Shown piece by piece: positions 1,033 through 10,817 of a stretch of DNA of 10,886 nucleotides (position 1 is the first letter of the stretch; each line of letters begins with the position of its first letter). The notes under the pieces were generated by a model. It saw only the letters and a program-made list of their open reading frames with translations, ran no database searches and was not told the DNA's origin. This stretch comes from Deltaproteobacteria bacterium RIFOXYA12_FULL_61_11 (lineage in GTDB: Bacteria; Bdellovibrionota_F; JAHFAK01; YA12-FULL-61-11), in assembly GCA_001799195.1 (NCBI GenBank), contig MGSU01000064.1:15472-26357 (forward strand), in the 5' to 3' direction. Made by a program: the position numbers and the translations under genes.

Positions 1033-1220
1033 TTCCGGCTCTGCTATGCACTTCCCCGGAGGAGCTGGAACGCTCCGACTCCTCCAACGATCGGTGCCGG
1101 GAAACGAGTGGAAGACTCGTGCTGCCCCGCAGCCGTGAGGGGAACGACCGTCCGATAGGCCACTGGCGCCCGAGGTGCCGGGAAGGCGGACCAGTAGGGG
1201 GCCCCGAGCCGGAAGACCGA
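1033..1220 (+). promoter_or_regulatory. Cobalamin (B12) riboswitch, aptamer
   Basis: The core elements occur in the right order: GGTGCC followed by GGGAA (1094-1104), a perfect hairpin ACGAGT/ACTCGT (1105-1110 with 1116-1121), the junction run GCTGCCCCGCAGCCGT (from 1122), the B12 box GCCACTG (1159-1165), GGGAAGGCG (1180-1188), and the 3' signature AGCCGGAAGACC (1207-1218). A perfect 9-bp stem (TTCCGGCTC 1033-1041 with GAGCCGGAA 1206-1214) encloses the aptamer. Within it GGAGGA (1058-1063) pairs with TCCTCC (1081-1086), or alternatively GGAGC (1061-1065) with GCTCC (1072-1076). The known class binds adenosylcobalamin or related cobalamins and lowers expression when ligand is present. Here it precedes a complete B12 importer operon, as expected. 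The end coordinates are approximate. Confidence 0.95.
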
Positions 1221-1236
1221 ACCGATCGCACACCGC

Positions 1237-1271
1237 GAGGGAGGTCCGTATGTCCGGCCGTTTTCCCCCTC
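1237..1271 (+). promoter_or_regulatory. Riboswitch expression platform: strong RBS of the leader ORF with possible sequestering stem
   Basis: GAGGGAGG (1237-1244) is a strong Shine-Dalgarno sequence ending 5 bases before ATG 1250, only about 20 bases after the aptamer. GAGGG (1237-1241) can pair with CCCTC (1267-1271), which would fold the ribosome site and the start codon into one hairpin. No terminator with a T-run is evident between the aptamer and btuF, so translational control seems likelier than attenuation. The 5-bp stem is short; the pairing is an inference. Confidence 0.4.
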
Positions 1272-1315
1272 TTTCACCACCGTGTTCCCCGTTGCTGCAC
1301 AGCGGAGGCCGCTGA
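1250..1315 (+). CDS. Short leader ORF (21 aa) between B12 riboswitch and btuF
   Basis: ATG at 1250 follows the Shine-Dalgarno sequence GAGGGAGG with ideal spacing. The ORF encodes 21 residues beginning MSGRFPPLSPPC and ending LLHSGGR, with five prolines, and stops at TGA 1313-1315. The last base of the stop is the first base of the btuF ATG (TGATG), a classic coupling arrangement. It is too short to hold a known domain and I recognise no family. Its placement suggests that the riboswitch controls its ribosome site and that ribosomes finishing it re-initiate on btuF. btuF also has a weaker site of its own (GGAGG, 1303-1307). Whether the peptide itself matters is unknown; a chance ORF remains possible. 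Confidence 0.5.
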   Translation: MSGRFPPLSPPCSPLLHSGGR

Positions 1316-2238
1316 TGCAGGTCCGTCATCGACTGTTCCTGCTCTTGTTCGGCGGTGCCATCCTCCTTACCGTGGTGTTACCGACCGTGTTGCTCCGGGT
1401 GGAATCGGCGAGATCATCCGACAGCGCGGCGTGCAGCCGATTGGTGTCGCTCTCTCCCAGCCTGACCCAGACGGTGCTCGCGTTGGGGTTGGCCTCGTCC
1501 CTCGTCGGGGTGACGAGGTTCTGCACCCTGCCCCTCGGTCAAGAGGTCGCCCGGGTCGGGGGTTTTCTCGACCCGGACCTGGAAGCCGTGGTGGCGGCGC
1601 GGCCGACCCTGGTGTTGCTCCTTCCCGCTCAGGACGAGGTACGGGCAAGCCTGGAAGATTTCGGTCTTCGGACCCTGACCGCCGGGAACGATACGGTCGA
1701 CCAGATCCTCCAGACCGTTGGAGAAATCGGCCGGCGCTGCCACGTGGTGGATCGGGCGGAAGTGGTCGTCAAAGCGTTGCAAGGGATGATACGGCGCGTC
1801 GCCGAGGCGGTGCCCGAGGGAAAGCGGCCGCGGGTGTTGCTCTCCGTGGGCCGTTCTTTGGCAGATCCGGTACTGCGCGAGGTACACCTCGCAGGACCGC
1901 GCACCTTCTTGGGAGAACTCCTGGTCTTGGCGGGTGGGACCAATGCCTACACACGCACCGAGGGCCCGGCCTACCCGGCACTCTCGGCCGAAGGGGTCTT
2001 GAGCTTGGATCCCGAGGTGGTCCTCGAGGTCCTGCCCGAGAGCGATCTCGGCTCCCTGGGACCCGTTCAGGCCTTGAGGGCCTGGTACCGGCTCTCCTCG
2101 CTCACCGCGGCCCGCGAGGGACGGATCCATCTCGTGACGAGGCCGGAGGGCGTCGTGCCCGGGCCGGAGTTCGTTTGGTGGCTCGAGCGTTTTGCCTCCT
2201 TGCTGCACCCGGTCGCCACGCCGGAGGCAGACCGATGA
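1315..2238 (+). CDS. btuF: Cobalamin-binding periplasmic protein of a B12 ABC importer (BtuF-like)
   Basis: This is the substrate-capture protein of the vitamin B12 importer, delivering cobalamin to the BtuCD complex at the inner membrane. The 307-residue product opens with basic MQVRHR and a long hydrophobic stretch (about residues 7-27), a signal peptide or uncleaved anchor. The helical-backbone binding-protein fold follows: RLVSLSPSLTQTVLALG (about 42-58), then VGVTRFC (64-70), GGFLDPDLEAVVAARPTLVL (about 82-101) and a C-terminal lobe with LAGGTNAY. These match the BtuF/FhuD family pattern and its usual length. I chose ATG 1315 because it has GGAGG eight bases upstream, overlaps the leader ORF stop and starts directly at the signal sequence; a GTG at 1282 would add 11 residues without a visible ribosome site. 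The gene overlaps btuD by four bases (ATGA). The riboswitch makes cobalamin far likelier than siderophore or haem. Confidence 0.9.
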   Translation: MQVRHRLFLLLFGGAILLTVVLPTVLLRVESARSSDSAACSRLVSLSPSLTQTVLALGLASSLVGVTRFCTLPLGQEVARVGGFLDPDLEAVVAARPTLVLLLPAQDEVRASLEDFGLRTLTAGNDTVDQILQTVGEIGRRCHVVDRAEVVVKALQGMIRRVAEAVPEGKRPRVLLSVGRSLADPVLREVHLAGPRTFLGELLVLAGGTNAYTRTEGPAYPALSAEGVLSLDPEVVLEVLPESDLGSLGPVQALRAWYRLSSLTAAREGRIHLVTRPEGVVPGPEFVWWLERFASLLHPVATPEADR

Positions 2239-3023
2239 ACGTCGTACCGGTGCTCAGAGTCCGTGAGCTTTCCTGCACCCTCGGCGGGCGCGAGGTTTTA
2301 CACGGGGTGTCCTTAGCCCTCGAGCCCGGCTGCTTCCTCGCCGTGCTCGGTCCCAACGGTGCGGGCAAGACCACCTTGCTCCGGGTACTCGCCGGACTGT
2401 TGACGCCCCAACGTGGGGAACTCGAGGTGTCGGGTTACCGGCTCTGCGACCTGCCCCGGAGAAAGATCGCCACGCTGCTCGGGTACGTCCCCCAATCGCT
2501 GGGGAGTGAGCTCCCGTTCAGCGTGCGGACCTTCCTGGCCCTGGCGCGGTATCCGTACCTCGGGGCCTTCTCCGAACTCCCGCGTCAGGATCGCGCCCTG
2601 GTCGACGAGATGCTGGAGCGCTGCGGGCTGCTGGCGCTTTCCGAACGGCGGGTGGATAGCTTGAGCGGAGGGGAACGCCAGCGCGTCTCGGTCGCCGCGG
2701 CCTTGGTGCAGCATACCCCGATCATCTTGCTCGACGAGCCGACCGCGTATCTCGACCCGAGGCACGAGGCCGAGGTCCTCACCTTGCTCCGCCGCGCCAA
2801 TCGCGAGCTCGGCAAGACCCTGGTCATGGTCACCCACGACCTCAACGCCGCGGTGCTCCATGCGCAGCGGGCCCTGATCCTTGCCGAGGGACGAGTGCGC
2901 TACGACGGTCCGGTCGCCGGCGTCATGGACGAGGCTCTCCTCCTCGAAGTCTATGGGCACAATGCCTTGTTCGTGGAGCATCCGCACAGTGGCCAGCGCC
3001 TGCTCGTCCCGGAGGGACCATGA
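2235..3023 (+). CDS. btuD: B12 ABC importer ATP-binding subunit (BtuD-like)
   Basis: The 262-residue cytoplasmic ATPase powers cobalamin import by the permease encoded next. All ABC motifs are intact: Walker A GPNGAGKTT (39-47), Q-loop glutamine 87 in GYVPQ, signature LSGGE (143-147), Walker B IILLDEPTAYLDP (from 163) and the switch histidine 201 in VTHD. Sequence style and length are those of the BtuD/FecE/FhuC iron-siderophore/B12 subfamily, so the substrate is assigned from operon context. The start ATG 2235 lies in the overlap with the btuF stop (ATGA), and the 3' end overlaps the btuC start in the same way, implying tightly coupled translation and fixed stoichiometry. The frame stays open far upstream across btuF and the riboswitch, but that extension is not protein-like. 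Confidence 0.93.
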   Translation: MNVVPVLRVRELSCTLGGREVLHGVSLALEPGCFLAVLGPNGAGKTTLLRVLAGLLTPQRGELEVSGYRLCDLPRRKIATLLGYVPQSLGSELPFSVRTFLALARYPYLGAFSELPRQDRALVDEMLERCGLLALSERRVDSLSGGERQRVSVAAALVQHTPIILLDEPTAYLDPRHEAEVLTLLRRANRELGKTLVMVTHDLNAAVLHAQRALILAEGRVRYDGPVAGVMDEALLLEVYGHNALFVEHPHSGQRLLVPEGP

Positions 3024-4015
3024 AACCCGGGCCGACCACGAGGCTGTTCGTCCTCGGCGTGCTCGCTCTGTCGGTGCTGGCCTCGGCCCCCTTCCTCGGG
3101 AGCGAGTTTCTCTCGCCCGCACTCCTGTGGACGACCGGGCCGGCGGGACCCGAGCGGGAGATCCTCCTGGTGTTGCGCTTTCCGCGCGTGCTGTTGGCCT
3201 TCCTGGCAGGGGGGAGTCTCGGCGTCGGCGGACTGGTGTTCCAGAGCGTGTTCCGCAACCCCCTGGCCTCGCCCTATACGCTCGGGGTGGCCAGCGGTGC
3301 CGCGTTCGGTGCGGCCCTCACCGTCATCCTCGGACTGGGCGCGACTGCGTTTGGTCCAGCGTGGCAGACGGTGGGAGCCTTTGCCGGGGGATTAGGCGTG
3401 ATGGCCCTGGTCCAGGCCTTGGGCCGCGTTGCCGGGAGGGGCAGTGCCACCCTGCTCTTGGCAGGAGTTGCGGTCAGCTTCTCCTGTTCCGGCGCCATGC
3501 TGTTCCTGCAATACCTCGCCGATTTCACCCAGACCTTCCGGTTGGTCCGTTGGCTCATGGGTGGTGTGGCCACCGTGGGTTACGGCGGCCTTGCCGTGGC
3601 CGCTCCCCTGGTCCTCTGCTGTCTCGCGGGGGTCTACCGCTTGGACCGGGAACAAGACCTCCTCCTGCTCGGCGAGGAACTTGCCGCTGCCCGCGGGGTT
3701 GCTGTCGAGAAGGTGGTCATGCTCCTCCTCTTCTTGGTCACCGTCGCGATCGGTGCGGTGGTTGCGCTCTGCGGTCCGATCGGCTTCGTCGGGTTGATGA
3801 TCCCTCACCTCTGCCGACCGCTGGTAGGCCCGGAGCACCGCTATCTCGTGCCTGCGACCATGCTCACGGGCGGAGGCTTCCTCGTGCTGGCAGACCTCCT
3901 GGGCCGCACCCTCATCGCGCCTGCCGAGCTCCCGGTCGGGGTCTTGACCGCGCTGCTCGGTGGGCCGTTCTTCCTGGTCGTATTGTGGCGGAGTCGGGGG
4001 AGTTCCGACCGGTGA
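3020..4015 (+). CDS. btuC: B12 ABC importer permease (BtuC-like, FecCD family)
   Basis: This 331-residue, mostly hydrophobic protein should form the dimeric inner-membrane channel with about ten transmembrane helices. FecCD-family hallmarks are clear: RFPRVLLAFLAGGSLGVGG (about 53-71), FRNPLASPYTLGVASGA (about 78-94), the cytoplasmic coupling segment LLGEELAAARGVAVEK (216-231) that contacts the ATPase, GPIGFVGLMIPHLCRPLVG (252-270) and the C-terminal GRTLIAPAELPVGVLTALLGGPFF. Length and motif order are normal for the family. It starts at ATG 3020, overlapping the btuD stop, and is the last gene of the operon. No TonB-dependent receptor (btuB) lies in the window, so the outer-membrane step must be encoded elsewhere. 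Confidence 0.93.
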   Translation: MKPGPTTRLFVLGVLALSVLASAPFLGSEFLSPALLWTTGPAGPEREILLVLRFPRVLLAFLAGGSLGVGGLVFQSVFRNPLASPYTLGVASGAAFGAALTVILGLGATAFGPAWQTVGAFAGGLGVMALVQALGRVAGRGSATLLLAGVAVSFSCSGAMLFLQYLADFTQTFRLVRWLMGGVATVGYGGLAVAAPLVLCCLAGVYRLDREQDLLLLGEELAAARGVAVEKVVMLLLFLVTVAIGAVVALCGPIGFVGLMIPHLCRPLVGPEHRYLVPATMLTGGGFLVLADLLGRTLIAPAELPVGVLTALLGGPFFLVVLWRSRGSSDR

Positions 4016-4066: not shown

Positions 4067-4096
4067 TTGACTATGGACATTGACCATGGTTATTAT
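4067..4096 (+). promoter_or_regulatory. Sigma70-like promoter of the toxin-antitoxin operon
   Basis: TTGACT (4067-4072) and TATTAT (4091-4096) each match five of six consensus bases and are separated by 18 bases. They lie in a conspicuously AT-rich patch for this GC-rich window. Transcription would begin near 4103, about 25 bases before the antitoxin ATG. The spacer contains ATGG (4073-4076) and CCAT (4084-4087) in inverted order, a possible half-site pair for autorepression by the antitoxin, as is usual for Phd/YefM systems. That operator call is weak. Confidence 0.6.
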
Positions 4097-4127
4097 CGTG
4101 ATGCACGGTGTGTCTCAGGGGGACCCC

Positions 4128-4376
4128 ATGGACAACCAAGATTCCATCTCGATCTCGGCCTTCAAGGCGACCTGTCTCAAGTTGCTGGTCCAGGTGAAGA
4201 ACACCGGACGCTGCCTTCTCGTGACCAAGAGGGGCGAGCCCATAGCCCTCATCACGCCACCGGTCAAGAAGGCGAGCGAGGCGAGCTGGCTGGGGTCGAT
4301 GAAGAACCGGGGTGAGCTCGAGGGAGAAATCCTCTCGCCAGCCGGTTCTCCCGAGGACTGGGAGGGTTTGAACTAG
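4128..4376 (+). CDS. Type II antitoxin, Phd/YefM family
   Basis: The 82-residue product carries the Phd/YefM N-terminal DNA-binding fold: SISAFKATCLKLLVQV (about 7-22), then TGRCLLVTKRGEPIALITP (about 26-44), the beta-hairpin block diagnostic of this family. The C-terminal half is charged and probably disordered until it wraps the toxin. It should neutralise the PIN nuclease encoded next and repress its own promoter. ATG 4128 is chosen because a G-rich ribosome site (AGGGGG) ends five bases upstream and the protein starts just before the domain. In-frame starts further upstream (TTG 4080, ATG 4101) would overlap the promoter region. The stop TAG is directly followed by the toxin start. Confidence 0.87.
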   Translation: MDNQDSISISAFKATCLKLLVQVKNTGRCLLVTKRGEPIALITPPVKKASEASWLGSMKNRGELEGEILSPAGSPEDWEGLN

Positions 4377-4769
4377 TTGAAACTGCTGCTGGATACCCAT
4401 ATTCTGCTGTGGAGCTTGTTGGACCCCGACAGGCTGACGCCGGAGGTCCGCGCGCTCCTGCAGGACGAGAAGGTGGAAGTCTGGTATTCCCCCATCACCC
4501 TCTGGGAGATCCTGCTGCTGGGGCAGAAAGCGCGGGTGATCCTGCGTCCCGATCCGGAAACCTTCGTCCGAGACATGTTGGTTACCGTTCCCCTGAGGGA
4601 AGCCCCCCTCTCCGGTGAAATCGCTATTCGCAGCAGGAACCTGGCCCTCCCTCATGAAGATCCGGCCGACAGATTCCTCATAGCCACGGCTCTCGTCTAC
4701 GAGCTGGACTTCGCGACCGCCGACGATCGGATACTGTCGGCAAGGCCGTGCCGGATCCTGGCCTGCTGA
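4377..4769 (+). CDS. Type II toxin, PIN-domain ribonuclease (VapC family)
   Basis: The 130-residue product is a single PIN domain, which in this family cleaves RNA in the cytoplasm, often tRNA or rRNA, with metal ions held by acidic residues. The expected acidic set is present: Asp6 in MKLLLDTHILLW, Glu44 in ITLWEI, Asp98 in DPADRFLIATA and Asp116 in TADDRIL, so it appears catalytically intact. The start is TTG 4377, immediately after the antitoxin TAG. MKLLLDTHILLW is the canonical family N-terminus, and the ribosome site GGGAGGG (4360-4366) sits ten bases upstream inside the antitoxin gene. The rare start and long spacing would keep toxin output below antitoxin output. The target cannot be predicted from sequence. 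Confidence 0.9.
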   Translation: MKLLLDTHILLWSLLDPDRLTPEVRALLQDEKVEVWYSPITLWEILLLGQKARVILRPDPETFVRDMLVTVPLREAPLSGEIAIRSRNLALPHEDPADRFLIATALVYELDFATADDRILSARPCRILAC

Positions 4770-4805: not shown

Positions 4806-5585
4806 ATGGAGCTGTGTTCGTACCCCCTACATCCCGGGAAACCCGCGCTCGGGTCCCTGGTCACTGCTGAGGCGTATCGGGAGTATGCAACGGCTGGATC
4901 GGGCAAGGCGCCCCGGGTACCTCCCTCGGTCCTGCTCTGCTTCCACGCCGAGGTCGTCCACCGGGCCCAAGAAGCGGGCTGGACGAGATCGGAGAGAACG
5001 CTCGGGCACTCGATGCTCCTGCCCGAGACCGAGCCCGCCCTCATCGCGCTGCATCGGCTGCCGGGTATCGGCGCGCCTATGGCCGCGGCAACTTTGGAAG
5101 ACCTCATCGCCTGCGGTCTCCGGCGATGTTTGATCGTGGGTACGGCCGGGGGTCTTAGACCTGAGCTTGCTCCAGGGACCCTGATCCTGGCAGACCAGGC
5201 GCTGCGCGACGAGGGGACCTCGTGGCACTACCTGCCGCCGGCGCGTTCGGTCGAGGCTTCGCCAAGTCTTGTCGGGGAGCTGGAACGCGCGCTCGAGGCT
5301 TCGGAGCTCTCCTTCGCGAGGGGGACCACCTGGACCACCGACGCCCCCTATCGGGAAACGGTTGAGGAGGTGGTGGCCTATCGAGGTGCGGGCGTCCTGA
5401 GCGTCGAGATGGAGGCGGCGGCGGTCTTCGCCGTCGCCGCGTGCCGAGGGATAGAAGCCGCCGCGCTGTTGGTCCTCAGCGATGTGCTCGACGAGCGGGG
5501 GTGGGTGCCGCGCTTCTTCGCGCCCGAGGTCGAGACAGGCCTCTCCAACGCCGCGCGTATAGGTTTGGAGGTCCTTGGAGGCTGA
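4806..5585 (+). CDS. Nucleoside phosphorylase family protein (purine/uridine phosphorylase-like)
   Basis: The 259-residue enzyme belongs to the PNP/UDP phosphorylase family, which cleaves the glycosidic bond of a nucleoside with phosphate in salvage. Diagnostic blocks are IVGTAGGLRPELAPGTLILAD (about 110-130), RDEGTSWHY (134-142), TTDAPYRET (177-185), the ribose-binding SVEMEAAAVF (199-208) and SDVLDERGW (225-233). The SD pair occupies the place of the catalytic Asp of hexameric purine phosphorylases, which leans toward a purine or related substrate; uridine is the alternative. Start ATG 4806 has AGGAG (4795-4799) six bases upstream. The gene begins 36 bases after the toxin stop and may be co-transcribed with it, since no separate promoter or terminator is obvious. 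Family is secure; exact substrate is not. Confidence 0.85.
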   Translation: MELCSYPLHPGKPALGSLVTAEAYREYATAGSGKAPRVPPSVLLCFHAEVVHRAQEAGWTRSERTLGHSMLLPETEPALIALHRLPGIGAPMAAATLEDLIACGLRRCLIVGTAGGLRPELAPGTLILADQALRDEGTSWHYLPPARSVEASPSLVGELERALEASELSFARGTTWTTDAPYRETVEEVVAYRGAGVLSVEMEAAAVFAVAACRGIEAAALLVLSDVLDERGWVPRFFAPEVETGLSNAARIGLEVLGG

Positions 5586-5607
5586 GGTCGGAGCCTCGAA
5601 TCCGACC
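5586..5607. terminator. Hairpin between convergent operons, possible bidirectional terminator
   Basis: GGTCGGA (5586-5592) pairs perfectly with TCCGACC (5601-5607) around an 8-base loop. It starts on the base after the phosphorylase stop and ends 11 bases from the stop of the convergent minus-strand barrel gene. Neither side has a T-run, so its strength as an intrinsic terminator is uncertain. Confidence 0.45.
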
Positions 5608-5618
5608 CGGGAGGACGT

Positions 5619-6854
5619 TCAGAAGTACACGCGCGTCGCGGTATAGACCATGACCGGATAGGCCCCGAATTCCGACCGCCACGTCCCCTGATCGGTGAGA
5701 CCCCGACCGAGTTGCAAGAAGGCCCCGAGGTCCAGATACACCTCCTCGGCCACGTTGTAGTCCACTGCCGGAGCAATTGAGGCCGAAGGATCCTCGAGAT
5801 TGCACAAGACCTGGAGGCTTCCTCCCCACAAGGGAACCAGCTCGTGTCTTCCCACGGCGGCGAGATAGTGCCTGCCCAACAAGTAGGTGGATCCCTCGGT
5901 GTAGGCGGGGCTCGTGAGGCGGTGCTGCAATGCCTCGGAGGGGTCGGCGTCCCCTGCGCCGTTGTAATGGTACTCGAGGGCGAGATAGAGGCCCGAACGC
6001 AGCGCGACGTTGTAGTCCGCGCCGAGGCTCAGCCGCAGGTAGTCCTCTTCGTCCTGCCCTTCCTCCAGAGTTCCTGCCAGGGTGTAGGCGGTCTCGAACC
6101 AGAGGCCGGCCCCGGAGAGTTCCCCGGAGCAGTCCAACCCGAAGAGGAGATTGCCCTGGAAGGCGGTCCCCAGGGCGACGAGTTCGAGGCCTAAGAGCGA
6201 GGCCTTGACCCGGGCGAATGCCGCGCTATCAGCGAGCTGAGCATGATCTCCCGCTACCAGGCCCAGATCCACCTCGCTGAGCGAGCCCAACGGCAAGCGC
6301 AACCGCAGGGCGTCGATTCCGGCCCGCTCCTCGCGGTCGAGTTCTCGGTACGAGAACGGAGCCAGCACATCGGTGGGATTGAGCACCCGGGCCGATCCGA
6401 AGGCGAGGGGTTGCCGGCCGAGGAGCAGATCGGCGAACGGCAGATGCAACGAGGCGACCAGGCGGTCGAGGTCCTGGCTTACCCGGGCAGTGCCGCCGGC
6501 ACCGGGACCGAGCAGATCGTTGGGGAGATCGACCAACCGGTACGGCGAGGGGGATGGGCCCAGGCCGTCGGCCAGGGTCGCGAGCCCTCCCTGTTCGAGC
6601 GTTGGGGCGACCTGGTAGGCCACTTCGAGATCGAGCAAAGTCGAGGGCACGAGCAGGGCCCGCCCCCTCCACACCTGGTTGACCTGACCATGGCGAGACG
6701 CAGGCTCGAGTCCGAATACCTCGGCGTGTTCGGGCATTTGATAGCCGAGCACGAAGGTCTTGACCCGGCCCGAAATCTCGACCCGCCCATCTTCGCCTTC
6801 GGCGACCGTGAGGAGCAGCAGCCATAGCAGGATCCCGCCAAGGACCCTCCTCAC
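5619..6854 (-). CDS. Outer-membrane beta-barrel protein of the ABC exporter operon, uncharacterised
   Basis: The 411-residue product starts with a signal peptide (MRRVLGGILLWLLLLTVAEG, cleavage near residue 20). The rest is a run of alternating hydrophobic/polar segments with aromatic girdle residues, ending TATRVYF. A final Phe preceded by alternating hydrophobics is the recognition signal for the BAM assembly machinery, so a C-terminal strand of an outer-membrane barrel is likely. The block LLGRQPLAFGSARVLNPTDVLAPF resembles segments of porin-like families such as DUF1302, but I cannot assign a family firmly. The start is GTG 6854, overlapping the ATPase stop by four bases (GTGA), so it is translationally coupled to the transporter and probably supplies the outer-membrane end of that pathway. 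It is not a TolC-type protein: no long coiled-coil segments are visible. Confidence 0.8.
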   Translation of the reverse strand: MRRVLGGILLWLLLLTVAEGEDGRVEISGRVKTFVLGYQMPEHAEVFGLEPASRHGQVNQVWRGRALLVPSTLLDLEVAYQVAPTLEQGGLATLADGLGPSPSPYRLVDLPNDLLGPGAGGTARVSQDLDRLVASLHLPFADLLLGRQPLAFGSARVLNPTDVLAPFSYRELDREERAGIDALRLRLPLGSLSEVDLGLVAGDHAQLADSAAFARVKASLLGLELVALGTAFQGNLLFGLDCSGELSGAGLWFETAYTLAGTLEEGQDEEDYLRLSLGADYNVALRSGLYLALEYHYNGAGDADPSEALQHRLTSPAYTEGSTYLLGRHYLAAVGRHELVPLWGGSLQVLCNLEDPSASIAPAVDYNVAEEVYLDLGAFLQLGRGLTDQGTWRSEFGAYPVMVYTATRVYF

Positions 6855-7555
6855 GCCGCCCCCTCCCGCCGTTGGTCGGCTTCGATACGACCATCCTTTA
6901 AAGTTATCAGACGCTTGGCCATTGCAAACACGGCTTCATCATGCGTAGAGAATAGGAACGTCACCTTGTGGTCGCGGTTGAGTGCGGCCATGAGTTCGAG
7001 CAGGGCCGCGGCGTTCAGGGAATCGAGGTTCGCCGTCGGTTCGTCGGCGAGGATCAGGTCGGGCCGGGCGACGATGGCTCGGGCCACGGCCACGCGTTGC
7101 TGCTGCCCGCCGGAGAGCTGGGGCGGGAAGCGGCGTTCAAGGCCGGCCAGGCCGACCTCGGCGAGTATTGCCGCCACCCGCTCTCGGCGCTCTTCTCGAG
7201 GAACGCCCTGGAGCATCATCACGTACTCGATGTTCTCGGTCACGGTGAGGACCGGGATCAGGTTGTAGGCCTGGAAGACGAACCCGATATGGTCGCGCCG
7301 GAAGTCGGACAACTCCCGGCCCGACATTGACGTGACTGGGGTACCGCCAAGGGTGATCGTGCCCTTGCTCGGCAGATCGAGTCCCCCGAACAGGTGCAGG
7401 AGAGTCGATTTCCCGGAGCCGGAGGGACCTTTCAACGCGGCGAATTCCCCCTGGCTGAGGTCGAGGTCGATCCCCCGCAACGCCTGTACCTCGATCGCAC
7501 CGCTGCGAAAGGTCTTCTCGACCCCTTCCGCCCGGAGCAGCGTGTTGCCCATCAT
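6851..7555 (-). CDS. ABC transporter ATP-binding protein, LolD/MacB type
   Basis: The 234-residue ATPase has all motifs: Walker A GPSGSGKST (43-51), Q-loop Gln95 in GFVFQAYNLIP, signature LSGGQ (147-151), Walker B LILADEPTANLDS (from 167) and switch His205 in STHD. The GFVFQAYNLIPVLTVTENIE and ADEPTANLDS wording is typical of the MacB/LolD/FtsE group, which drive mechanotransmission or lipoprotein extraction rather than ordinary channel transport. It should pair with the two FtsX-type permeases encoded just upstream. ATG 7555 (or the adjacent ATG 7552) is chosen because GGAGGAGG lies directly upstream; a farther in-frame ATG at 7636 would add 27 arginine- and cysteine-rich residues and overlap the preceding gene. 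The stop overlaps the barrel gene start (GTGA). Confidence 0.92.
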   Translation of the reverse strand: MMGNTLLRAEGVEKTFRSGAIEVQALRGIDLDLSQGEFAALKGPSGSGKSTLLHLFGGLDLPSKGTITLGGTPVTSMSGRELSDFRRDHIGFVFQAYNLIPVLTVTENIEYVMMLQGVPREERRERVAAILAEVGLAGLERRFPPQLSGGQQQRVAVARAIVARPDLILADEPTANLDSLNAAALLELMAALNRDHKVTFLFSTHDEAVFAMAKRLITLKDGRIEADQRREGAA

Positions 7556-7571
7556 TTGTTCCTCCTCCGCT

Positions 7572-8819
7572 TCACAGACCACGCCGCATCGTCTCCGCCG
7601 GAGGACGTCGGGCAACGTGCAGCGCTGGATAGGCACTGGCCAAGAGGGTGATCGCCACCAGGGCCAGGGGATAGAGCACGAACTGCCGGGGGTGTAACTC
7701 GGGCCTGATCAGCTCGAGGATGGTCACGCCGGCGAATTCCGAACCGCTGTAATCGATCCCCACGTATCCGTACCACCACCCCAAACAGGCTCCGAGGAGC
7801 GCTCCGGGAAGAGCGCTGAGCAAGGCCAACCAGCCCCCCTCGGCCATGACCAGGAGACCGAGAGAGCGAGGGCTGGTCCCCAGCGCGGCCAGGACTCCGA
7901 ACTCGAACTGCCGCTCGTAGATCGACATGAACAGCGTGTTCATCACCCCGACCGAGACGATGCCGAAGAGCAGGAGGACGACGATCCAGAGCATGAAATC
8001 GCTGAGCTCGAGGATCGAGCGCACCTCGGGCAACAGCTCGGGCCAACCCACGGCCTCGTTGCCCGGCCCTGCCAGGGTCGGCCAATACCCTGCCATTACC
8101 TCGAGCGCGGTGGTCTCCTCGCGAAAGCGCAGGGCGACCTCGTGGAAGCCTTCACCAAGTCCGAACAAGCCCTGGGCATTCGGCAAGGTGGTGAAGGCCG
8201 CGCCCTCGTCGAGCTGGCGGATGCCGAAACGGACCACCCCTCCGATCCGGAACAGTTCCTGGACGAGCTCGCCGCTCCCTGCCCGAGCCGTCGTCACCAC
8301 GATCTTGTCGCCCACGGCGACCTCGAGGTCCTCGGCCAGTTTTGCCCCGAGCAGGATTTCAGACCTCCCCTCCTCCGTGAGATACCTCCCGGCAGCAAGG
8401 ACCCGGTGTAGGGCCGACACCCCGGGTTCGAGCGCAGGGTCCACCCCGACCAACAAGACCGGCCGGAGATCTCTCGGACTGGCGAGCATACCCGAGCCCA
8501 GGACTCGTGGCGCGAACGCCGCCACCCGCTCGTCGGCCCCGAGACGTTGCAGGAGCGCCGCCGGATCGGTGAGCACCGCTTCGAGTTCACGGCGTTTTCT
8601 CCACCCCTCCCGATGGACCTGAGCCTCGCCGACGAAGGTATGGGTCGCTCCGCGGATCATGCGGGTGAACATACCCAGCCAGAGGGCATCGCCGAAGATC
8701 ACCGTGGCGAGCCCCACTCCGATGGCCATCCCGGTGAGCACGGAACGGCGGCGGTGCCGGAACACGTTGCGCAGGGCCAAGAGGAAGATGAGGCGCAGCG
8801 CTCCGAATCGTGGCGGCAT
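7572..8819 (-). CDS. ABC transporter permease, FtsX/MacB (LolC/E-like) family, second of two
   Basis: The 415-residue inner-membrane protein has the layout of MacB and LolC/LolE permeases: an N-terminal helix after a basic patch (LRNVFRHRRRSVLTG, 17-30, helix about 26-46), a large periplasmic MacB_PCD-like domain (about 50-270), then three C-terminal helices of an FtsX domain (about 273-296, 318-348, 380-400). SIYERQFEFGVLAALGTSPRSL (about 299-320) is the conserved FtsX cytoplasmic coupling loop. ATG 8819 is chosen because it starts right before the basic patch and has TGAGGA at the upstream stop as ribosome site; the frame runs open back to 9404 but that stretch antiparallels the other permease and is not protein-like. 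It lies 11 bases after the paralogous permease and 16 bases before the ATPase, so the three are one operon. Confidence 0.92.
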   Translation of the reverse strand: MPPRFGALRLIFLLALRNVFRHRRRSVLTGMAIGVGLATVIFGDALWLGMFTRMIRGATHTFVGEAQVHREGWRKRRELEAVLTDPAALLQRLGADERVAAFAPRVLGSGMLASPRDLRPVLLVGVDPALEPGVSALHRVLAAGRYLTEEGRSEILLGAKLAEDLEVAVGDKIVVTTARAGSGELVQELFRIGGVVRFGIRQLDEGAAFTTLPNAQGLFGLGEGFHEVALRFREETTALEVMAGYWPTLAGPGNEAVGWPELLPEVRSILELSDFMLWIVVLLLFGIVSVGVMNTLFMSIYERQFEFGVLAALGTSPRSLGLLVMAEGGWLALLSALPGALLGACLGWWYGYVGIDYSGSEFAGVTILELIRPELHPRQFVLYPLALVAITLLASAYPALHVARRPPAETMRRGL

Positions 8820-8830
8820 GCCGGGGTTCC

Positions 8831-10057
8831 TCAGAAGGTTCGGAGGGCGTCGACCGGCCGGATCGTCGCCGCTCGCATCGCGGGATACAGGCTGACCAGC
8901 AGCGCGGTCAGGAAAATGGTCAGGGCCGGCAGCAGGAAGACGTGCAGCTCGAGCGCCCCCTCCATCCGGTCCATGAGCATGCCGGCCACGCTCATCGGTT
9001 CGGGGTACCTGATACCGTAGTGCTGGAAGTACAGATTCAGGCAACCGGCGAGCACCAGGGCCACGCCGAGAGCCCCCAGGGTCAGGAGTCCGGTCTCGAG
9101 CACGAGCAGGGTGAAGAGCAACCCGGGGGAGGTACCCAGGCTTCGCAGCACCCCGAACTCGCGCGTGCGTTCGAGCAGGCTCATCAGGACCGTGTTCAAC
9201 ACCCCCAGGGCCACGATGAGGACAAAGATGAATTGCATCACAGTGTTGCCCTTGCGATCGCCCTCCATGGTCTTGGTGAACTCCTTCTCGACCACTTGCC
9301 AGGGATCCACCTCCAGACCGGAGAAGCCTGTGCGGTCGAGCACTCCCTCGAGAGCTTGTGCGACCTCTTCCGCGAGTCCGTAATGGGTGAGCCGGAGGGC
9401 CCATTCATGCACCCTTCCTCCCAGGGCAAGGAACTCCTGAGCCGTTCGGAGGGGCAGATAGCCGTTGGAGCGCTCGGATTGGTCGGCGCTGCTGCCGAGC
9501 AGCCCTGCCACGGTGAAGAGGTCATTGGCCACAGAACCATCGGCGGCTTGACCGACGAGGACCACCTCATTGCCCGGTCCGACTCCCAGGACCTCGGCGG
9601 TGTCCGACCCGAGGAGGATCACGTTCCCCTCGGCGGGCAGGAAGCTCCCGGCGCTCACTTTCGCAGCCAGGCGCGTGGTGGAACGTTCCCGATCGGGATC
9701 GATGCCGATCAACCGGAGCCCGGTGGTTTTCGGGCCAGCGAAGGCGAGGACCGAGGAATAGATCCTCGGCGCGGCCCTTTGCACCCGTGGATCGCTCTCG
9801 AGGAGATTTCCAAAGGTTTCTCCGTCCTGCACGGTCTTGTGCAACCCGGGGCGGTCAAGGTAGCCGCGAGCATGTACCTGGACGTGGCCGGTATGATCGC
9901 CGGTGAACATCTCGATGATCGCGCCGTAGGTGCCGGCATCCAGGGAGAGCATGAAGGACATGAGGACATACCCGACCACGATGGTCAGGCCGGTGAGCAC
10001 GGTGCGTCGGCGATGGCGCGAGAGGTTCCTCAGGGCGAGGCGAAGGAGCATGGCCAT
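8831..10057 (-). CDS. ABC transporter permease, FtsX/MacB (LolC/E-like) family, first of two
   Basis: The 408-residue protein shares the architecture of its neighbour: basic start LALRNLSRHRRRTVLTG (7-23), first helix about 19-38, a periplasmic domain of about 220 residues including a LIGIDPDRE segment (equivalent to LVGVDPALE in the partner), and an FtsX domain with helices about 273-295, 312-342 and 373-392. The coupling loop is LLERTREFGVLRSLGTSPGLL (about 294-314). The two permeases are evident paralogues and probably form a heterodimer like LolC/LolE. Start ATG 10057 follows GAGGG; a second ATG at 10051 is nearly as good. It begins seven bases after the stop of the LolA-like gene. Substrate cannot be read from sequence. 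Confidence 0.92.
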   Translation of the reverse strand: MAMLLRLALRNLSRHRRRTVLTGLTIVVGYVLMSFMLSLDAGTYGAIIEMFTGDHTGHVQVHARGYLDRPGLHKTVQDGETFGNLLESDPRVQRAAPRIYSSVLAFAGPKTTGLRLIGIDPDRERSTTRLAAKVSAGSFLPAEGNVILLGSDTAEVLGVGPGNEVVLVGQAADGSVANDLFTVAGLLGSSADQSERSNGYLPLRTAQEFLALGGRVHEWALRLTHYGLAEEVAQALEGVLDRTGFSGLEVDPWQVVEKEFTKTMEGDRKGNTVMQFIFVLIVALGVLNTVLMSLLERTREFGVLRSLGTSPGLLFTLLVLETGLLTLGALGVALVLAGCLNLYFQHYGIRYPEPMSVAGMLMDRMEGALELHVFLLPALTIFLTALLVSLYPAMRAATIRPVDALRTF

Positions 10058-10064
10058 CCCGCCC

Positions 10065-10817
10065 TCAGTGCTTGGCCCGCAGATTGCGCAGGCTGAAGAC
10101 CCCGTCCGGGAGCGGTTGATCGAGGCTCAGCTTCTCGTAGCGGATTACCGTTTTGTGTCCGGGTTTGGTCAGCGGGTGGAGGGTCAAGACCGTGGGCACG
10201 GTCCTTCCCCCGAAGTCCCGGGGCTCGCTGAAGACCAACTCCCGGACGGCCTTGCCGTGTTCGTCATGGTAGACCTCGCGGAGCGGCAGCAAGGTTGCGG
10301 CGTCGAGGGTCGTGACGATCCTGCCCCACAGCGAAACCGTGCCCTGGCGAGGGGTGAGCTCCAGGACCAAGCGCCCGGGCACCTCGCTCTCGGCATACCG
10401 AGCCTGGTAATCGCGCAGCAGCGAGGCTTCTTTGACGAGGTCGTCATTGGTGAAGTCCGAACCCATCCAACTCCCCAACATCATGCTCGGAGGGATCTTC
10501 ATCTCCTTATCGATCCGGGGGAAGTAGTTCCACATCTCGGTTCCGAGACGCAAGGTGGCGATACCTTTGTCTTTCTTGGGCGCATCGAGGACCATGAAGG
10601 TCTTGTCGAGCCCCTCGCTCCAGCACCTAACCTCGAGCGTGCGCTCCCAGTTCGGCGTGACGATGGACATACGCAGCTCGGCGTAGGCGGTCGTACCGCG
10701 GAAGAGGTGATCGAGGCGAGCCAGTACCTCGTCCAGCGGGGGGCGGGGCTCCGGGGGCGAAGCTCCGAACGCGCTCATCGAGTTCAGCAACAGCACGGCG
10801 ACGAGCAGGTAGCTCAT
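10065..10817 (-). CDS. Periplasmic outer-membrane lipoprotein-sorting (LolA-like) family protein
   Basis: The 250-residue product has a signal peptide (hydrophobic MSYLLVAVLLLNSMSAFGA, cleavage near residue 19) and then an all-beta LolA-like fold. GSWMGSDFTNDDLV (115-128), preceded by MWNYFPRIDKEMKIPPSMM, is the signature of the family annotated as outer membrane lipoprotein-sorting protein (PF17131-like), whose members have a greasy half-barrel able to hold acyl chains. The family is commonly found next to FtsX permeases or RND-type transporters. As first gene of the operon it should work in the periplasm, receiving cargo from the permease pair or stimulating its release. ATG 10817 has GGAGA four bases upstream; the frame stays open to the window edge but the signal peptide starts at this Met. 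It is not LolA itself, which is shorter and lacks this motif. Confidence 0.87.
   Translation of the reverse strand: MSYLLVAVLLLNSMSAFGASPPEPRPPLDEVLARLDHLFRGTTAYAELRMSIVTPNWERTLEVRCWSEGLDKTFMVLDAPKKDKGIATLRLGTEMWNYFPRIDKEMKIPPSMMLGSWMGSDFTNDDLVKEASLLRDYQARYAESEVPGRLVLELTPRQGTVSLWGRIVTTLDAATLLPLREVYHDEHGKAVRELVFSEPRDFGGRTVPTVLTLHPLTKPGHKTVIRYEKLSLDQPLPDGVFSLRNLRAKH

Follow-up and report, generated by a model that had tools for sequence, protein, structure and literature searches.

It has long been asked how lipids and other hydrophobic molecules traverse the periplasm to reach the outer membrane, and the locus described here raises this question in a compact form. In a 10,886-nucleotide stretch of the genome of Deltaproteobacteria bacterium RIFOXYA12_FULL_61_11 (contig MGSU01000064.1, positions 15,472 to 26,357; hereafter the window, to which all coordinates refer), five consecutive genes are found on the minus strand. 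They encode a LolA-like periplasmic carrier (10065..10817, 250 residues), two permeases (8831..10057, 408 residues, and 7572..8819, 415 residues), an ATP-binding subunit of the LolD/MacB class (6851..7555, 234 residues) and an outer-membrane barrel (5619..6854, 411 residues). What does such a set transport, and is it a system in its own right? A preliminary description, made from the same DNA, had placed these genes on a single strand with junctions of 7, 11 and 16 bases and one 4-base overlap, all of which was confirmed at the coordinates given above, the overlap lying between the ATPase and barrel genes. The visible cassette of five genes comprises neither a MacA adaptor nor TolC, LolB or a recognised lipoprotein gene, and the results reported below give good support to the idea of a dedicated five-part envelope set whose cassette encodes no adaptor and no TolC. 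The locus probably encodes a dedicated, adaptor-less trans-envelope exporter of the type VII ATP-binding cassette (ABC) class, whose cargo would be a lipid or a small molecule of hydrophobic or amphiphilic character. In the mechanism proposed, the soluble LolA-fold carrier would take the cargo into its hydrophobic groove, cross the periplasm and deliver it to the 18-stranded barrel, from which the cargo would enter the outer membrane or pass beyond it. The conservation across many phyla of a five-gene set that brings together an engine of the ABC class, a carrier acting as shuttle and a barrel of its own would make this a compact and testable route.

The preliminary description had made its reading depend on the barrel being kept beside the transporter in relatives. 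A barrel search of 145 genomes, including the window's own, gave a match in 29 of them; most of these barrels adjoin a LolA-like gene together with FtsX and ATPase genes, and five of the 29 loci have no recognised LolA-like neighbour. The species genomes of a larger collection (84,980) were then scanned once, using the carrier alone as the key. The 80 loci obtained in this way are those whose carriers are closest to that of the window, a choice which favours the same architecture. They are found in Poribacteria, Zixibacteria, Aminicenantes, Nitrospirota, Gemmatimonadota, Elusimicrobiota, Bdellovibrionota, Deferribacterota and Gammaproteobacteria, in Ralstonia and Roseateles, in Desulfocicer and in others. 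Full context was available for 46 loci; carrier, permease or permeases, ATPase and barrel occur together at 45 of them, spread over many phyla and nearly always in the order of the window, the sole exception (L129) lacking only the barrel. Overall, the order carrier-permease-permease-ATPase-barrel is found at 62 loci. In the Ralstonia and Roseateles copies the permeases are fused and the ATPase gene lies ahead of them. Among the loci of the analysis as a whole, one of the ABC type has no recognised barrel (L198), and at three others the carrier is present without one (L181, L195 and L213). The recurrence of the same gene set across phyla is more than chance. A search of plasmids for an annotated and named copy returned only distant matches, hypothetical or unannotated, and no paper on the present five-gene set was found among the open-licence literature; to all appearances, it has never yet been presented as a system.

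A gene set so similar in composition to LolCDE and LolA could simply be the housekeeping lipoprotein sorter of this organism, a possibility that the preliminary description had itself put forward as an objection. Both permeases match the MacB_PCD and FtsX families of Pfam (60.3 and 46.5 bits for the first, 44.2 and 59.1 bits for the second), and the ATPase matches PF00005 (ABC_tran) at 119.8 bits. Against TIGR02212, the equivalog model of LolCE, the permeases score 99.7 and 102.8 bits respectively and do not reach the cut-off of 362.45. The ATPase scores 214.5 bits against the LolD model TIGR02211, whose cut-off is 307.75; the ATPase beside the canonical LolCE of the same genome is also under it, at 269 bits. 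This canonical system is located elsewhere in the draft assembly (4.64 Mb, 342 contigs, 87% complete; its contig C64 ends with the window): contig C34 carries a LolCE permease at the equivalog level (362 bits) followed by a LolD-like ATPase, and contig C252 carries a LolA of the PF03548 family. The presence of these separate genes rules out that the window holds the only LolCDE of the genome and makes a housekeeping role in lipoprotein sorting unlikely.

The permease tree leads to the same place. Escherichia coli LolC and LolE form with the LolCE of this genome a clade with 100% support, from which the window permeases are excluded; E. coli MacB is placed elsewhere, and the window permeases fall outside its branch as well. 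Most permeases encoded in first position constitute one lineage and most of those in second position another, each spanning several phyla, with the exception of the divergent loci L058, L064, L176, L204 and L219, which do not fit this scheme and whose placement on long branches is unsure. The window's 408-residue permease belongs to the first lineage and its 415-residue permease to the second. Two conserved, position-specific lineages give the permease pair the appearance of an old duplication whose order was maintained, and the two proteins presumably assemble as a heterodimer.

The carrier belongs to PF17131 (LolA_like; 144.5 bits for a cut-off of 30), which is its sole Pfam match at E <= 0.1; PF03548 (LolA) is not matched. 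It begins with an apparent type I signal peptide in which no lipobox was seen. The most conserved stretch of its subgroup in alignments of relatives is the motif GSWMGSDFTNDDLV (about residues 115-128; 10434..10475, minus strand), which served as the pattern for the scan of species genomes mentioned above. The AlphaFold2 model of the carrier (mean confidence, pLDDT, 92.4) was compared with solved structures, and matched at Z-scores of 21-23 Porphyromonas gingivalis LolA3 (9tp6), a DUF1329 protein (4z48), NE2245 (3buu) and a Vibrio protein (3bk5), the first two at 22.9. The nearest LolA and LolB structures reach only 12-14, and the contrast between these values places the carrier, which has the LolA fold, in a subgroup of its own. 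A profile comparison between the carrier and the genome's own LolA gave nothing significant, though their folds agree at the superfamily level. The closest solved relative, P. gingivalis LolA3, is reported to lack both the arginine of LolA and the leucine of LolB and to bind LolB only very weakly (PMC13103446); deletion of lolA3 in Flavobacterium johnsoniae produced no phenotype (PMC11885536). The same genome contains on contig C273 (L076) a set resembling AmeBCD, composed of MMPL, YCF48 and DUF1329 genes, and, on contig C8 (L075), another PF17131 gene adjoining an MMPL fragment, indicating that several related carriers co-exist in this organism.

The barrel, whose identity was unproven in the preliminary description, is now backed by its structural model, by its fold matches and by its C-terminal residue. 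The gene starts with GTG and encodes a protein with a signal peptide and a C-terminus ending in RVYF; a terminal F or Y is found in 114 of 120 barrels linked to ABC or MMPL pumps. No Pfam or NCBIfam family was matched by this protein, and neither single-sequence nor profile searches of the PDB detected a solved structure. The AlphaFold2 model, built with 50 aligned relatives, is an 18-stranded barrel (mean pLDDT 92.1, pTM 0.88) in which turns of 2-5 residues follow the even strands and mostly longer loops the odd ones, the pattern expected of a porin of the outer membrane whose termini lie in the periplasm. Among solved structures, those nearest to it in fold are OccK9, a porin resembling BenF, OprD and AlgE (Z-scores of 21-25, 7-13% identity), with 24.8 for OccK9 at a root-mean-square deviation of 3.1 over 323 residues. 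At the sequence level, none of the 50 relatives matched the OprD family and a single one matched Alginate_exp (E 0.011); PF06980 (DUF1302) was weakly matched by four of them (best E 3.5e-4), the window barrel being unmatched. As regards an Omp85-type barrel, as in the Borrelia set discussed below, the best fold matches are porins and no Omp85 chain appears among the 50 matches listed. The third long loop (residues 150-178; 6321..6407, minus strand), which contains a conserved P.D..APF region, belongs to the most conserved stretch of the barrel: G153 and D162 are invariant, and P160, P166 and E175 nearly so. Its motif is present in 69 of the 81 barrels linked to ABC pumps and in 30 of the 39 linked to MMPL pumps, versus 1.5% of shuffled sequences. 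Judging from the strand order in the model, this loop is predicted to be extracellular, and it may bend inwards to lie in the pore, like loop 3 of porins.

Barrels linked to MMPL pumps, a second type of engine, predominate in a less biased sample of 60 loci, chosen in score order among the PF17131 matches of the 145 genomes already searched with the barrel. A barrel of the window family adjoins the carrier in 32 of the 36 loci with full context, and the pump at these 32 loci is MMPL/RND (resistance-nodulation-division) in 28 cases, ABC in two and unrecognised in two. Pfam confirmed MMPL at three loci found earlier, one of which encodes a fused MMPL-LolA protein. The window barrel is homologous to the MMPL-linked ones. 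The barrel profile was obtained by iterative training on these loci, a procedure in which drift is possible, but in carrier-bearing loci all 139 barrel matches above 40 bits lie on the same strand as the carrier and within 7.5 kb of it. When ABC- and MMPL-linked members are mapped onto the trees, the carrier requires a single change (mean of 40 after shuffling; branch support 91, just under the 95 mark) and the barrel two (mean of 33), both being quick trees with long branches. This division by pump type points to a carrier and a barrel that diversified together with their pump, as expected for the parts of one machine. Our confidence is evenly divided on the broader proposal that the PF17131 carrier and the unnamed 18-stranded barrel constitute a common periplasm-to-outer-membrane half, coupled to two unrelated engines (type VII ABC and MMPL/RND) and providing a widespread form of hydrophobic export by shuttle instead of by an adaptor-TolC tube.

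The name attached to PF17131, outer membrane lipoprotein-sorting protein, is unsupported by the gene context of the sampled members. Because most of the sampled genes adjoin a barrel together with a pump of the MMPL or ABC type, this context suggests that many proteins annotated in this way do something else.

Clues to the cargo come from neighbouring genes and from published relatives. A TetR-type gene is located directly upstream of the carrier, on the same strand and at a median distance of 3 bases, at 11 loci; TetR_N was confirmed by Pfam in six of them (L059, L084, L089, L094, L121 and L153). The other recurring flanking families (phosphorylase-like, TPR and sensor-type) showed no consistent position or strand, so that only TetR stood out. 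In Bacteroidota, iron limitation induces operons with genes annotated as TetR, two ABC ATPases, MMPL, an outer membrane lipoprotein-sorting protein and hypothetical proteins, by factors ranging from tens to over a hundred (PMC10434189). Deletion of the RND-driven ameABCD lowers monoterpene tolerance and raises the accumulation of Nile Red (PMC6394551), an MMPL-LolA protein and its adjacent porin are induced on the n-C28 alkane (PMC6304351), and YbbAP-TesA is a type VII ABC transporter able to handle hydrophobic molecules other than lipoproteins (PMC12646458). Taken together, these observations suggest lipids or hydrophobic small molecules as the cargo. The preliminary description had listed lipid, lipoprotein and pigment-like cargo; this list can be narrowed, a lipoprotein being less likely since the carrier subgroup stands apart from PF03548, the carrier-barrel pair also serves MMPL pumps and TetR precedes some copies. 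At one locus (L181, 7731-13201), a PF17131 carrier with neither barrel nor MMPL lies within a drug-efflux cluster of the TetR-TolC-EmrA-EmrB type, TetR being assigned by profile and the EmrAB and TolC names being read from the sequence. At six Poribacterial loci (L118, at 4942-7177, L045, L104, L108, L114 and L115), two extra envelope proteins, one of them an FG-GAP protein, are encoded between the carrier and the permeases.

Several points weigh against an exporter of small hydrophobic molecules or lipids. The class of the cargo, the direction of its movement and its hand-over from carrier to barrel are things that we infer. LolC and LolE are the best named relatives of the window permeases, and AmeABCD, with which a parallel was drawn, has an RND pump and a carrier from another, though related, family (DUF1329). 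Hydrophobic export through the barrel would be unusual for a fold class some of whose members, OprD/Occ, are channels by which hydrophilic solutes are taken up. TetR is found beside a minority of loci; in the window, the sequence upstream of the carrier gene is cut off by the end of the contig after 69 bases, so that a TetR gene cannot be seen there and the operon may extend beyond its five genes. Finally, the FG-GAP protein inside some Poribacterial operons bears a lipobox-like signal, which leaves room for a lipoprotein role. This last observation would fit a second, specialised Lol pathway, in which a subset of lipoproteins would travel via the carrier to the barrel and be inserted in the membrane or flipped to the cell surface. 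Such a pathway would agree with the LolA fold of the carrier and with permeases and an ATPase that score best against the LolC, LolE and LolD models, and a MacB-like ABC, LolA-like and Omp85 barrel set of Borrelia was indeed proposed for lipoproteins (PMC13078400). We nevertheless regard it as unlikely in view of the canonical Lol genes elsewhere in the genome, the position of the permeases outside the LolC/LolE clade, the absence of a PF03548 match, the sharing of the carrier-barrel pair with MMPL pumps, the behaviour of LolA3 reported in the two studies cited above, the porin-like barrel and the lack of a recognised lipoprotein gene in the visible cassette.

The export of small hydrophobic molecules also covers a narrower case, in which the same machine would expel exogenous toxic compounds (solvents, terpenes or antibiotics) for detoxification. 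The TetR-type genes directly upstream, the EmrAB-like cluster of L181 and the tolerance phenotype of AmeABCD speak for it, but no resistance or xenobiotic-degradation gene flanks the window copy and the regulator is present at a minority of loci; a detoxification role is conceivable, though doubtful. The opposite direction, in which the barrel would admit a hydrophobic nutrient that the carrier brings to the ABC complex of the inner membrane, could be suggested by the match to OprD/Occ uptake channels and by the induction of the related MMPL-LolA protein and porin during growth on long alkanes. It is however very improbable, as the characterised substrate-moving systems of type VII (LolCDE, MacB and YbbAP) are established to extract outwards from the inner membrane (PMC12646458) and no catabolic genes flank the window copy.

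The proposed exporter can finally be placed among known systems. It shares with LolCDE-LolA(-LolB) two FtsX/MacB_PCD permeases, a LolD-class ATPase and a LolA-fold carrier, and differs by its scores under the LolCE and LolD cut-offs, its permeases outside the LolC/LolE clade, its PF17131 carrier, its dedicated barrel, the absence of LolB from the cassette and its co-existence with a canonical Lol system. AmeABCD, an HAE3/RND monoterpene exporter of Castellaniella, and MMPL-LolA-porin sets such as TOL_3187/3188 likewise combine an inner-membrane pump, a periplasmic protein of the LolA superfamily and an outer-membrane barrel, but their pump is of the RND/MMPL type where that of the window is made of FtsX permeases and an ABC ATPase; AmeABCD furthermore has DUF1329 and YCF48-like periplasmic proteins and a barrel annotated as DUF1302 (PMC6394551). 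The nearest published proposal, itself computational, is Borrelia BBJ23-29, which groups in one cluster a MacB-like type VII ABC, a LolA-like carrier and a dedicated outer-membrane barrel, the latter being however of the Omp85 type and accompanied by a single permease, proposed to be homodimeric, and by extra TPR proteins (PMC13078400). MacAB-TolC has the same MacB_PCD/FtsX class of permease, whereas the window cassette lacks MacA and TolC and encodes its ATPase and permeases as separate genes. In YbbAP-TesA, too, a type VII ABC works on hydrophobic molecules together with a periplasmic partner, but this partner is a hydrolase and neither carrier nor barrel is involved (PMC12646458). OprD, Occ and AlgE resemble the window barrel by their 18-stranded fold and differ from it by their low identity and by the lack of any family match at the sequence level. 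AupA/AupB was discarded as an instance of the same system, its barrel being FadL-like and the corresponding paper making no mention of LolA or RND (PMC5989066).

The remainder of the window contains three other features. An element of about 190 bp (804-994) is bounded by perfect 13-base terminal inverted repeats, CCTTCAGTCTTGG and CCAAGACTGAAGG, and is present in dozens of copies in the genome (57 matching pieces at 73-100% identity, 40 of 130 candidates being scored); it is an interspersed repeat resembling a miniature inverted-repeat transposable element. Just downstream of this repeat, a cobalamin riboswitch (74.4 bits) precedes genes for a periplasmic binding protein, an ATPase and a BtuC-like permease (1098-4015), which likely form a B12 uptake operon. 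Finally, the Phd/YefM-like and PIN-domain genes recognised by Pfam at 4080-4769 constitute a probable toxin-antitoxin pair.

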